From contig JAFLCE010000031.1 of NCBI GenBank assembly GCA_017303655.1, positions 1-40,981 of the forward strand: a stretch of 40,981 nt of DNA, read 5' to 3'. Under the pieces are notes generated by a model that was not told the DNA's origin, made no database searches, and saw only the letters and a list, made by a program, of their open reading frames with translations. Shown here in pieces: positions 27,537 through 36,954 of this stretch. This DNA is from Anaerolineae bacterium. Its GTDB lineage: Bacteria > Chloroflexota > Anaerolineae > Anaerolineales > Villigracilaceae. Within the stretch, counting starts at the first letter, position 1; each line of letters starts with the position of its first letter. Made by a program: the position numbers and the translations under genes.

Positions 27537-27623
27537 CTCCGAGAAAGAGCAAAACCGGGAAAACCCGGTGGCGCAAAGCCCTACTCTAAAGCTGAACAGA
27601 GCCATGAGTGTCAGGGCTGCCGA
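27537..27623 (+). promoter_or_regulatory. GEMM-type (c-di-GMP-I class) aptamer 1
   Basis: AGAGCAAAACC, stem CCGGG-AAAA-CCCGG, then GGCGCAAAGCC, a second helix (CCCT/AGGG and ACTC/GAGT) and a terminal GGCTGCCGA. These fit the conserved GEMM blocks GGCAAACC, GACGCAAAGCC and GGxTGCCGA. The nucleotide two before the C of GCAAA, which I align with position 20 of the Vc2 riboswitch, is A here instead of G; in GEMM-Ib sensors A at this place favours 3',3'-cGAMP (established for Geobacter-type RNAs). The alignment is by eye. Confidence 0.78.
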
Positions 27624-27713
27624 TAAAAGCAAAACCGTTAAAAGACGGCGGCGCAAAGTCAGAGCGTCTAAAACCAACTCAAGTAATTTTGGTCAGGACC
27701 GACCGACTGCCGA
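27624..27713 (+). promoter_or_regulatory. GEMM-type aptamer 2
   Basis: AAAGCAAAACC, stem CCGTT-AAAA-GACGG, then GGCGCAAAGTC, GTCTAAAACC, a hairpin ACCAA/TTGGT and terminal GACTGCCGA. It directly abuts aptamers 1 and 3. The nucleotide aligned with position 20 is again A. It has the most degenerate second helix of the three. Confidence 0.75.
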
Positions 27714-27799
27714 AAGGCAAACCCGGGGAAACCCGGCGACGCAAAGTCATGGGTCTACCTCCGCAATTTGTTTTGCGGGCACGATTGCCAGACTGCCGA
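27714..27799 (+). promoter_or_regulatory. GEMM-type aptamer 3
   Basis: AAGGCAAACC, stem CCGGG-GAAA-CCCGG with a canonical GNRA tetraloop, then CGACGCAAAGTC, GGGTCTACC, hairpin CCGCAA/TTGCGG and terminal GACTGCCGA. It is the copy closest to the c-di-GMP-I consensus, with G at the position aligned with 20. A stub GAGCAAACTT follows at 27801-27810, which resembles the start of a fourth unit, then the terminator. Confidence 0.82.
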
Positions 27800-27813
27800 A
27801 GAGCAAACTTATT

Positions 27814-27908: not shown

Positions 27909-29282
27909 ATGAACCTTATCTCTCCAAAGTTTTTGTTTTTATTTCTGCCCGTGTTTTTTCTTTTCTATTCCCTGCCTTTTAAGCGGCTCAAACTCGGATT
28001 GGGCATTGCGGGCAGCCTTGTTTTTTACGCATGGGGGAACTCTCAATACTTAATCCTGATTATTGGTCTGCTCTTATTTGCATATATAACGGGTCGCCTT
28101 CAGGACTGGCAACGGGGTAAACGTTCTGCACCTTTTATTCTCTGGAGTGGGATTTTCCTGGTCATTGCCTTGTTAGTGGGCTTCAAACTTCGTACAGATG
28201 TAGCCTACCCATTGGGCTTGTCATATGTGACGTTTCAAGTCATCGCTTACTTTGTGGATGTTCAAAAGAGTAGGGAAAACTGTGAAAATGATTTTCTGAA
28301 ATTTTCTTTCTATCTTTTATTGTTCCCAAAGATACTGGTTGGCCCGATTGTGCCCTACCGTCAGATTAAACTTCAACTGGACAAATTAAGGTCTGATCCG
28401 CAAGTCATGGCGGATGGGTTGCGGAGATTCTTGAAGGGCTTTGCGAAAAAGGTGTTGATTGCAGATACCTTGGGAACGGTTGTCGCACCGATTTTTGACC
28501 TTCAATCTCCTGTAGTCACACCGGGGATTGCTTGGCTGGTCATTATCAGTTACTCGCTACAGTTATATTACGACTTCTCTGGCTACACAGATATGGCAAT
28601 CGGGCTTGGGAATATGATGGGGGTGCGCTTTATGGAGAATTTCAACGCCCCGTACCTTTCCAAAAATATCAGCGATTTTTGGCGGAGATGGCATATCTCC
28701 CTTTCGACCTGGTTCCGAGAGATCGTGTTTTACCCATTGGAAAGGCGTCGTTTTAAATTGTACGGTCAGCAGATAAACATTATGGTCGTTTTTGTTATGA
28801 CCGGCTTGTGGCATGGGCTGACCCGCAATTTCCTAATGTGGGGTCTATTGCATGGGGCAGTATTAGCATTTGAATCCACATCTTTTGGGCGTAAGTTGCG
28901 CAACCTTTGGCTGCCATTGCAGCATGTTTATGCATTGTCAGTGATCATTGCAGGCTGGGTCCTATTCCGCTCGCCGACGCCGGATTTTGCATTTGATTAC
29001 TTCAGGCGACTTGCAGGTGATATGAGAGGTATTCAGATATTGCCGTTTGAGATGACCAGTCCGTTGCCGTTCATTGAACCAACGTTTTTGATCGCGCTGG
29101 TAATCGGTGCCTTGCTCTGCCTTCCATGGAGCGACTGGCTTCATCAGTCCTTTCCAAAGTTATATGAAGATCATATTGTCTTGAGAGTTGTTTCAGATAT
29201 GGGTCTGGTCTTTATATTTCTTGCGGCACTTGCTTCAGCAGCAAGTGCGTCCTATCGGCCCGGAATTTATGGAGGGTTTTAG
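27909..29282 (+). CDS. AlgI-like MBOAT O-acyltransferase
   Basis: 457 aa polytopic membrane protein with about ten to twelve hydrophobic segments. The AlgI/DltB-type MBOAT signature is present: WRRWHISLSTWFR with His262 and the catalytic-type His302 in MTGLWHG. GPIVPYRQ (145-152) and YYDFSGYTDMAIGLG (220-234) are further family hallmarks. These proteins move acetyl groups across the membrane for O-acetylation of exopolysaccharides. AAAGGA lies about 14 nt before ATG 27909. It is followed after 2 nt by the AlgJ/AlgX-like gene, and preceded by the tandem c-di-GMP-type leader, which suits control of polymer modification. Confidence 0.95.
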   Translation: MNLISPKFLFLFLPVFFLFYSLPFKRLKLGLGIAGSLVFYAWGNSQYLILIIGLLLFAYITGRLQDWQRGKRSAPFILWSGIFLVIALLVGFKLRTDVAYPLGLSYVTFQVIAYFVDVQKSRENCENDFLKFSFYLLLFPKILVGPIVPYRQIKLQLDKLRSDPQVMADGLRRFLKGFAKKVLIADTLGTVVAPIFDLQSPVVTPGIAWLVIISYSLQLYYDFSGYTDMAIGLGNMMGVRFMENFNAPYLSKNISDFWRRWHISLSTWFREIVFYPLERRRFKLYGQQINIMVVFVMTGLWHGLTRNFLMWGLLHGAVLAFESTSFGRKLRNLWLPLQHVYALSVIIAGWVLFRSPTPDFAFDYFRRLAGDMRGIQILPFEMTSPLPFIEPTFLIALVIGALLCLPWSDWLHQSFPKLYEDHIVLRVVSDMGLVFIFLAALASAASASYRPGIYGGF

Positions 29283-34476: not shown

Positions 34477-35445
34477 ATGCGTAAGAACTGGAAAAAACTT
34501 TTAATTTTCTCTTTCCTCTTTGCCTGTCTCACTATGGCGTTGGGACCGTTCGCGGTTCCCGTCCCTGAGCTGACAGACCTGGTGGATGCGAGCGCCTTCA
34601 TTGAACCCGATAGCAAATTTATCGAGATCAATGGCGTGGACATTCACTACAAAGAAGCCGGGGCAGGCGAGCGGATGTTCATACTTTTACATCCCTTTGG
34701 CGGCAGTACGTATTCCTGGCGTGAAGTCATGGATGATCTTGCACCTTACGGCAGAGTCATTGCCTATGACCGCCCGGCATTTGGCATCACAGAACGACCG
34801 ATGCCCGAAGATTGGGATTCAAATCCGTACGGCATGAAAGCCAATGTCGAGATTCTGCGCGAGTTGTTAGATGCGTTCGGCGTAGACAAAGCCGTTTTAG
34901 TTGGCAACTCAGCTGGCGGCGGGGTCGCGGTGGCGTTCGCGTTGGAATATCCCGAACGAGTGGATCAACTGATCCTAGTTGCGCCGGGCGTGGGTGGCGG
35001 GTATGGTCCGCAGTTTCCAGCGTGGGCTCTGCCCGTCATGTGGACTCCGCAACTGCGGCATCTCGGTCCGCTGATTGTGCGTGATTATCAAGAAACTTTG
35101 CCGCGCACAATAGAACGCGAATGGTTCGATCAGACCAAACTCACTGCAGAGATTCGTGAAACACATTTGCAAATTTTGAAAATAAAAAATTGGGATCGTG
35201 CTTTTTATGAACTGAACTTTGCGCCTGCCTACCCGGAACTGCGTCCGCTATTGCCGCAATTGACCATGCCAGCGCTCATCGTGGCTGGAAGCGAAGATGT
35301 TCTTATCCGTTCATGGTATATGGAAGCCATCTCCATTGAAATTCCTGAAGCGACCCTAAATTTCATCCCAGCTTGCGGTCACGTTCCGCAAGAGGAATGC
35401 CCCACCGAATTGATGGAAGTTGTACTAAAATATCTGGAGTTATGA
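34477..35445 (+). CDS. alpha/beta hydrolase (Abhydrolase_1 type)
   Basis: 322 aa. Signal-anchor-like N-terminus (KKLLIFSFLFACLTMALG). It has the classic fold: HPFGGSTYSW (oxyanion), RVIAYDRPAFGITERP, nucleophile elbow GNSAGG, acid in GSEDVLI and His in CGHVPQEE. It resembles haloalkane-dehalogenase- or epoxide-hydrolase-like enzymes and esterases; the reaction cannot be named. The gene ends in ATGA shared with the start of the next gene (4-nt overlap), implying translational coupling to the redoxin. Confidence 0.86.
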   Translation: MRKNWKKLLIFSFLFACLTMALGPFAVPVPELTDLVDASAFIEPDSKFIEINGVDIHYKEAGAGERMFILLHPFGGSTYSWREVMDDLAPYGRVIAYDRPAFGITERPMPEDWDSNPYGMKANVEILRELLDAFGVDKAVLVGNSAGGGVAVAFALEYPERVDQLILVAPGVGGGYGPQFPAWALPVMWTPQLRHLGPLIVRDYQETLPRTIEREWFDQTKLTAEIRETHLQILKIKNWDRAFYELNFAPAYPELRPLLPQLTMPALIVAGSEDVLIRSWYMEAISIEIPEATLNFIPACGHVPQEECPTELMEVVLKYLEL

Positions 35446-35924
35446 GTTCCCTTCTGATCCAGGTTGGGGAAGCCGCTCTTGATTTCGAACTGAACGACAT
35501 TTCCGGCAATCCCATTCGTCTTTCAACATACTATAAAAAGCAACCTATCCTGCTTTCTTTTCTGCGCGGATTTTTCTGACCGCATTGCCGTGCGCAGTTG
35601 GCGCGCTTTCGCGATGCATATGCAGGCTTTGTCGATCGTGGGGCAGAACTTCTTGCAGTGGGTCCAGATGCTGCTGAGCCTTTCCAACGCTATTGGGAGC
35701 GGGAGCGTATCCCATTTATCGGAATGCCCGATCCCGACCATCGTGTTGCGAAGATGTATCGGCAGGAGATCAATCTCTTCAAGTTCGGGCGCATGCCCAT
35801 GAATTGCATCATCGATACCAACGGGAATATCCGCTATATTCATTACAGCGCAACCCGGCTCGACTATCCCGATACAGAGATTTTCTTCAACGTAATAGAT
35901 GAATTGAACAAAGCATCCAATTAA
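35442..35924 (+). CDS. AhpC/TSA-type redoxin, probable selenoprotein (UxxC)
   Basis: 160 aa if TGA at 35577-35579 is read as selenocysteine (residue 46). The frame is continuous on both sides: SFLRGFF, TGA, PHCRAQLARF. Relatives have RGFWCPHCRAQL, so TGA stands exactly at the first Cys of CxxC, giving Sec46-Pro-His-Cys49. The rest matches thioredoxin-fold peroxiredoxin-like proteins (VGEAALDFELNDISGNPIRLS; FIGMPDPDHRVAKMY; MPMNCIIDTNGNIRYIHYS). A SECIS-like hairpin follows the TGA. Start ATG 35442 overlaps the preceding stop. Alternatives: a point mutation or sequencing error turning TGC/TGT into TGA. selA, selB, selC and selD are not in the window. Confidence 0.8.
35582..35617 (+). promoter_or_regulatory. 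SECIS-like hairpin after the in-frame TGA
   Basis: The upper stem TGCGC (35591-35595) and GCGCG (35601-35605) encloses the loop AGTTG, with G at the second loop position, 16 nt after the TGA. An outer helix GCAT/ATGC (35582-35585 with 35614-35617) may extend it. This fits the bacterial SECIS rules as I remember them: stem of at least 4 bp, G among the first two loop bases, 16-37 nt from TGA to loop. Confidence 0.6.
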
Positions 35925-35925
35925 T

Positions 35926-36954
35926 ATGACTCTTGGACGCATTGCTTTTCTTGGCTCCGGCGAGACGTCTCTCGCTGGTGGTCGTATCTTTGAAACCTTA
36001 GCCCGCCTCATTCCTAGCCCGGTGCGGGTTGCCATTCTGGAAACGCCAGCTGGCTTTGAGCTTAATGCCTCTCTTGTTGCCGGTCGTGTGAAAGACTTCC
36101 TCGTTACTCGTTTGCAAAACTACAAACCCACCATAGACCTGATCCCCGCCCGCAAAAAAGGGACAGAGTTCAGCCCCGACAACCCCGACATTCTCAAGCC
36201 TTTATTACAAGCGAATATGATCTTCATGGGACCTGGCAGCCCCAGCTATGTAGTACGCCAACTCAAAGGAACCCTCGCCTGGGACATCATCCGCGCGCGC
36301 CATCGCCAGGGAGCCACCTTGATCTTTTCCTCCGCGGCGACTATCTCGGTGGGGCAGTGGGTTTTGCCTGTATATGAGGTCTACAAAGTAGGCGAAGATG
36401 TACACGTCAAAGATGGGTTGGGTATTTTCTCCGATTTTGGCATGCACGTCTCTTTCGTCCCGCATTGGAACAACGCCGAAGGCGGCGTGGACCTCGACAC
36501 CAGCCGCTGTTTCATCGGCATGGAGCGCTTCGATCAATGGCGTGTATTGACGCCTGCTGAAAATATTATCGTCGGGTTGGACGAACATTCCGGCATTATT
36601 CTTGATTTTGAAAAAAATATTTGTGATGTGCATGGCGTCAGCTCAGTGACGGTGATGAAAAATACAGGTACTGAGATGTATCCCTCTGGCGCGAATTTTC
36701 CATTAAGTGAGCTGGGTGAATTGAAACTTTCTGCAAATGAATCGATTCGCCCTGAAGTGTGGGAAATGCTTGCGGCGGTACAAACTCCCACAGAAGAGAG
36801 TCCTTCCGATGAAGTGCTTGCCCTGCTCGAGCAACGTAAACAAGTTCGCGCAGGCAAAGACTTCGCCGCTTCAGACCGTCTGCGTGATGAGATCGCAGCC
36901 TTGGGCTGGAAGGTCAAGGATTCAAAAGAAGGTCAACAAGTAGAGCGAATATAG
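35926..36954 (+). CDS. S51/GATase-like protein with CysS-type C-terminal segment
   Basis: 342 aa. The N-terminal domain (about 1-215) looks like the class I glutamine-amidotransferase/peptidase S51 fold: FLGSGETS, MGPGSPSYVV and LIFSSAATISVGQW, where the nucleophile-elbow Ser may be retained but the usual GxSAG glycine is not. The last 50 residues (VLALLEQRKQVRAGKDFAASDRLRDEIAALGWKVKDS, about 294-330) read like the C-terminal end of cysteinyl-tRNA synthetase (LIxxRxxARxxKDFAxADxIRDELxxxGIxLED). Function of the fusion is unknown. It starts 1 nt after the redoxin stop. Confidence 0.8.
   Translation: MTLGRIAFLGSGETSLAGGRIFETLARLIPSPVRVAILETPAGFELNASLVAGRVKDFLVTRLQNYKPTIDLIPARKKGTEFSPDNPDILKPLLQANMIFMGPGSPSYVVRQLKGTLAWDIIRARHRQGATLIFSSAATISVGQWVLPVYEVYKVGEDVHVKDGLGIFSDFGMHVSFVPHWNNAEGGVDLDTSRCFIGMERFDQWRVLTPAENIIVGLDEHSGIILDFEKNICDVHGVSSVTVMKNTGTEMYPSGANFPLSELGELKLSANESIRPEVWEMLAAVQTPTEESPSDEVLALLEQRKQVRAGKDFAASDRLRDEIAALGWKVKDSKEGQQVERI

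Follow-up and report, generated by a model that had tools for sequence, protein, structure and literature searches.

The Prx-like thiol:disulfide oxidoreductases, selenoproteins that combine a PF00578 domain with a UxxC or UxxU motif, appear in the available part of PMC13188914 (Table 1, reference WP_010940744.1), and a 'Prx-like protein' is named in that of PMC1088965. The portion of PMC1794560 available to us lists the Prx-like family for Syntrophaceae and Desulfobacteraceae, groups with relatives found here, and gives three selenoproteins for Chloroflexi. In the literature searched, with partial coverage, we found no paper on an Anaerolineae copy of the gene. The stretch of DNA analysed here, hereafter the window, comprises 40,981 nt of contig JAFLCE010000031.1 (assembly GCA_017303655.1, Anaerolineae bacterium, Villigracilaceae; forward strand), and at 35442–35924 on the + strand it contains a gene that shares with the Prx-like kind the PF00578 domain, a UxxC motif instead of TxxU, an in-frame TGA and a bacterial SECIS element. 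Judged from its sequence, the gene very probably encodes a selenoprotein of this kind, an assignment made by domain, motif and SECIS rather than by comparison with the reference protein. The gene adds a new member to a known selenoprotein class and is widespread in Anaerolineales, which thereby gain a widely conserved selenoprotein gene of a class often overlooked by standard gene finders. The best NCBIfam match was the SelL-related NF040769, which all 30 members of alignment A1 matched at E ≤0.001, but the window protein scored 56.7 bits over profile positions 2–97 of 173, below the cut-off of 120 bits. It shares the peroxiredoxin fold with the Sec peroxiredoxin PrxU (NF040737, peroxi_PrxU), yet its score of 19.1 bits lies below the cut-off of 270 and it carries UxxC, with no TxxU.

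The original prediction described a frame at 35442–35924 interrupted by TGA at 35577, with redoxin homology on both sides, and both points were borne out. Translation from the ATG at 35442–35444 to the TAA at 35922–35924 gave 160 residues with a single in-frame TGA at residue 46 (35577–35579, +), and the PF00578 (AhpC-TSA) match ran across it (residues 8–133; 87.3 bits versus a cut-off of 26); the gene call is based on read-through, Pfam and homologues. In this reading frame the redox motif is U46-P-H-C49, where the TGA codon, from frame and homologues, would supply selenocysteine as the first UxxC residue and the TGC at 35586–35588 (+) supplies the second, Cys49, which never varies in alignments A2 and A4. 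Read with the standard code, the forward frame at this locus yields only a 108-aa ORF starting from TTG 35598. The in-frame TGA is read in many relatives, as would be expected if the codon had been reassigned to sense in this lineage, but the ATG overlaps the TGA stop (35443–35445) of the adjoining upstream alpha/beta hydrolase gene (34477–35445, +), 12 of 35 non-overlapping window ORFs of at least 150 aa, picked mechanically, terminate in TGA, and a SECIS hairpin accompanies the in-frame TGA. Reassignment was rejected on account of these TGA stops and has a vanishingly small probability.

Homologues were collected from 152 family genomes, yielding 132 best matches at E ≤5.7e-35 (a hand count that includes the window gene and second copies). 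The in-frame TGA was present in 131 of the 132, one of which had a second TGA and one an extra TAA; the sole exception carried TGC (genome G054, locus L050). Among 118 distinct clean genes, obtained from 179 loci (L020–L198) after removal of duplicates and frames lacking a clean motif, 115 had TGA and three a Cys codon, although these sequences share ancestry and the gene counts are non-independent. An alignment of homologues displayed a conserved TGA with a few TGC or TGT exchanges, whereas the expectation that relatives have CxxC at this site failed: the nearest relatives carry TGA, and Cys is confined to the G054 exception and distant paralogues. When the genome contigs were searched with the window protein alone, no relative emerged, and a search with alignment A2 found 419; the best 80 of these came from Anaerolineales, Ardenticatenia, Desulfobacteraceae, Syntrophaceae and Smithella, among others, and included one Anaerolineales relative filed as Candidatus Villigracilaceae. 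In a phylum sample, 108 of 400 genomes had a match at 1e-20, and redoxins without TGA were numerous among the weaker matches. In a further set of 20 loci, nine lacked a clean motif by the pattern used and were set aside, including L207 (G370), which has no internal stop. We sorted the relatives into clades under labels of our own: A1, the clade of the window gene (UPxCRAQLAR), A2 (UPxCRAHLAR), B (UPxC..H.AQL) and C (U.QCR.HV.QL).

TGA lies one base away from TGC and TGT, so such a frame could in principle arise through an error in sequencing or assembly, or through a recent nonsense mutation of a Cys codon in a decaying pseudogene. This explanation is extremely unlikely: of the 132 best matches, which come from independent assemblies, 131 share the TGA, the protein sequence 3' of the TGA is conserved among relatives instead of decaying, and the codons of the downstream hairpin are locked. 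In the window the TGA is followed by CCGCATTGCC and then by GTGCGC AGTTG GCGCGC, in which 35590–35595 pair with 35601–35606 around the loop AGTTG (35596–35600). As the original prediction had stated, a hairpin with G as the second loop base follows the TGA, its stem beginning after 10 nt and its loop after 16 nt. The bacterial SECIS model in the available part of PMC13188914 calls for a loop of 3–9 nt, a stem of 4–16 bp, G among the first two loop bases, a UGA-to-loop distance of 16–37 nt and an energy of at most −7.5 kcal/mol. The putative SECIS at 35590–35606 (+), identified by folding and this published model, fits every constraint, with a 6-bp stem, a 5-nt AGUUG loop, G second, 16 nt and −8.8 kcal/mol; the loop distance, shared by its clade, is at the lower limit of this published range.

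Across the relatives, 105 of 124 TGA genes satisfied the SECIS model; synonymous-codon shuffles did so in 7% of cases, and segments from other parts of the same genes in 3%. By set, the model was satisfied in 62/64 genes of A1, 6/12 of A2, 23/28 of B, 6/6 of C, 7/9 phylum additions and 1/5 classed as 'other'. The strict model failed in the remaining 19 of 124 (A2 6/12, B 5/28, A1 2/64, 'other' 4/5 and phylum additions 2/9), which counts against the selenoprotein reading. When folding energy was compared with 1000 synonymous shuffles, 0.2% were as stable as the window gene (z −3.4, p 0.002), but p ≤0.05 was reached by only 15 of 39 genes in A1, 1 of 10 in A2 and 5 of 20 in B and C pooled; these low fractions too count against that reading, in a test that is cruder than the published SECIS constraints and stem-pair counts with slid controls. 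Codon choice within the A1 hairpin is locked, with Ala +5 as GCG in 64/64, Leu +7 as TTG in 60/64 and Ala +8 as GCG in 64/64, and elsewhere in the genes TTG accounts for 232 of 1261 Leu codons and GCG for 264 of 887 Ala codons. Stem cells were paired at 99.0% in A1 (66 sequences), 99.5% in B (37) and 88.1% in C (7). Two-sided compensating cells numbered 0, 5 and 5 in A1, B and C, and slid controls gave no more than 1, 2 and 2; the changes in B and C favour the selenoprotein reading, and the lack of any in A1 counts against it. Because the A1 stem is a GC repeat, one slid control in that clade was still 83.6% paired.

A search of the window assembly for selA, selB, selC and selD recovered all four. 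The assembly (4.6 Mb in 172 contigs, 93.55% complete and with 5.82% contamination) encodes tRNA-Sec (68.5 bits versus a cut-off of 47; called SeC with anticodon tca by ARAGORN), SelB (343 versus 242 bits), SelA (541 versus 268 bits) and SelD (361 versus 125 bits, its own frame carrying a TGA), with the caveat that contamination is present and that the sel genes lie on contigs other than that of the window. A second SelB-like match of 188 bits, under the cut-off, occurs near a contig end (L010, G000:C119:31277-32152) and could represent a different elongation factor, a gene fragment or contaminating sequence. SelA was found in 141 of the 152 family genomes, leaving little contrast between Sec-decoding and non-decoding genomes. 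Four of the 11 genomes without a SelA match carry the TGA gene (G030, G039, G109 and G143); their assemblies are listed as 85–95% complete, and the missing SelA probably reflects assembly gaps.

A tRNA-Cys that reads UGA is known elsewhere, and Cys homologues are present at this position, so the UGA might be decoded by a suppressor tRNA as Cys or another residue instead of Sec. The full Sec machinery, with a tRNA-Sec bearing the tca anticodon, and the presence of SECIS elements in Sec paralogues and their general absence from Cys paralogues make such decoding highly improbable. The proposal of a probable selenocysteine codon is thus upheld by the SECIS, the Sec machinery and the conserved TGA among homologues. 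Together with the Sec/Cys contrast described below, these observations render assembly error, pseudogene and a reassigned code very unlikely. In the selenoprotein reading, ribosomes would arrive at the UGA at 35577–35579, the hairpin at 35590–35606 would recruit SelB loaded with Sec-tRNA-Sec, whose synthesis would involve SelA and SelD, and translation would continue with Sec in place of termination. We infer that the protein would then carry out disulfide reduction or exchange through a Sec-Cys selenenylsulfide, its substrates being deduced likewise.

The paralogous clade C mixes Sec and Cys genes, and 41 loci reduced to 32 distinct genes allowed the two to be compared. The SECIS model was satisfied by 7/7 Sec genes versus 1/25 Cys genes, and Leu +10 was TTG in 7/7 versus 2/25. 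Sec genes formed 5–6 stem pairs, as did the Cys genes L084 and L246 (6/6 each) and L240 (5/6), and the other 22 Cys genes formed 2–4. The sister genomes G136 and G135 hold L083 with TGA and L084 with TGT, respectively, and the 45 nt after the codon are identical with the hairpin intact, indicating a very recent Sec/Cys exchange. In the Cys gene of clade A1 (L050), the A1 position is still occupied by a 5-bp hairpin, made of a different stem and the loop CAGUUAA, that falls outside the model and is possibly a SECIS remnant; such SECIS-like remnants after Sec-to-Cys conversion are described in the part of PMC1794560 available to us. From clade C the window genome itself carries the Cys gene L085 and also L216 (G000:C120:11610-12068; FVREYNUIQC), its second TGA-bearing gene of the family, which has a SECIS of its own.

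The position of the SECIS differs between clades. Clades B and C take in more distant members of the phylum as well as Thermodesulfobacteriota; here the loop lies 25 nt after the UGA and is mostly AGUU(G), from the codons of Gln-Leu +9/+10 (CAGUUG). The A1 loop sits at 16 nt, 9 nt nearer to the UGA than in these relatives, with CAGUUG encoding Gln-Leu +6/+7. In A2, the group nearest A1, the far position is retained in 6 of 12 genes with the loop GCUU or similar. The encoded residues differ accordingly, with Gln-Leu-Ala-Arg in A1 in place of His-x-Ala-Gln-Leu. On a tree of 98 proteins, which took in about half of the A1 genes, had few columns and drew a program warning of long branches, the 16-nt register occupied one side of one branch, and a single change sufficed in 95% of bootstrap trees; support for that branch was 95/39 with the Cys gene L050 and 100/93 without it. 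As far as these sequences indicate, the 9-nt difference would be best explained by a single shift on the tree. We consider it fairly likely that the SECIS jumped 9 nt (three codons) toward the UGA, and that the recoding signal rather than the function of the enzyme dictated the altered residues. No report of a shifted or relocated bacterial SECIS was found in the literature searched, which included the available parts of PMC4561486 and PMC9312934. The two registers, together with Sec and Cys paralogues with or without the hairpin, form a natural series on the positional tolerance of SelB, and the same series offers a test of how a recoding element constrains the protein encoded across it.

AlphaFold2, run with the window protein and 43 relatives, gave a confident model with pLDDT 90.0 and pTM 0.85. 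The top match among solved folds was Bcp1 (3drn; TM 0.86 by query length), and ResA first appeared at rank 33. Sequence and model together predict a peroxiredoxin fold whose UxxC site resembles that of thioredoxins. When aligned by profile, the peroxiredoxin 2ywn placed U46 on Thr and C49 on Cys of TxxC, while alignment to the ResA variant 3c71 placed UPHC on CPHC; the redox motif is thus at the same position and spacing as in ResA-type oxidoreductases, except that the window protein would carry Sec at the place of the first Cys. ResA itself is anchored in the membrane and lies outside the cytoplasm. By eye, we saw no signal-like N-terminus or membrane anchor in the window protein, which is probably cytoplasmic.

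The thioredoxin/ResA-like U46-P-H-C49 site points to disulfide reduction or exchange as the most likely activity, making the protein most likely a thiol-disulfide oxidoreductase, with peroxidase as the main rival. Action as a peroxidase (peroxiredoxin) differs in chemistry only and is non-exclusive. It is favoured by the top folds and profiles, which are Bcp/PrxQ peroxiredoxins, and by the alignment of Cys49 with the peroxidatic Cys of 2ywn. However, the Prx signature TxxC is replaced by a UxxC that aligns with the CPHC of 3c71, and Pro119, in the region that carries the cis-proline in thioredoxin-fold reductases, does not vary in alignments A2 and A4. In addition, the available parts of PMC1088965 and PMC13188914 keep TxxU Prx apart from UxxC Prx-like proteins. 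On balance a peroxidase role is the less likely one, with perhaps a modest chance of being right.

The genomic setting was compared in 39 named, deduplicated loci (of 80), 22 of them from clade A1. The same gene lies directly 3' of the selenoprotein gene in all 22 A1 loci examined, and the upstream neighbour within 700 nt is a hydrolase in 11–13 of the 22 and a uracil-DNA-glycosylase-like gene in nine. These shared neighbours imply that the A1 selenoprotein genes are orthologues in place. The downstream gene in the window (35926–36954, +) has a C-terminal CysS_C-like domain (PF23493, cysteinyl-tRNA ligase anticodon-binding domain; 32.8 bits versus a cut-off of 23), and the rest of its product shows only weak cyanophycinase similarity, below the cut-off. 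A cysteinyl-tRNA-ligase-like tail adjoining a Sec gene is a curious pairing. Elsewhere in the window, a class A RNase P RNA at 1–280 is truncated by the window start, and tandem c-di-GMP-I riboswitches at 27538–27624 and 27706–27800 lie 5' of an ORF at 27909–29282.
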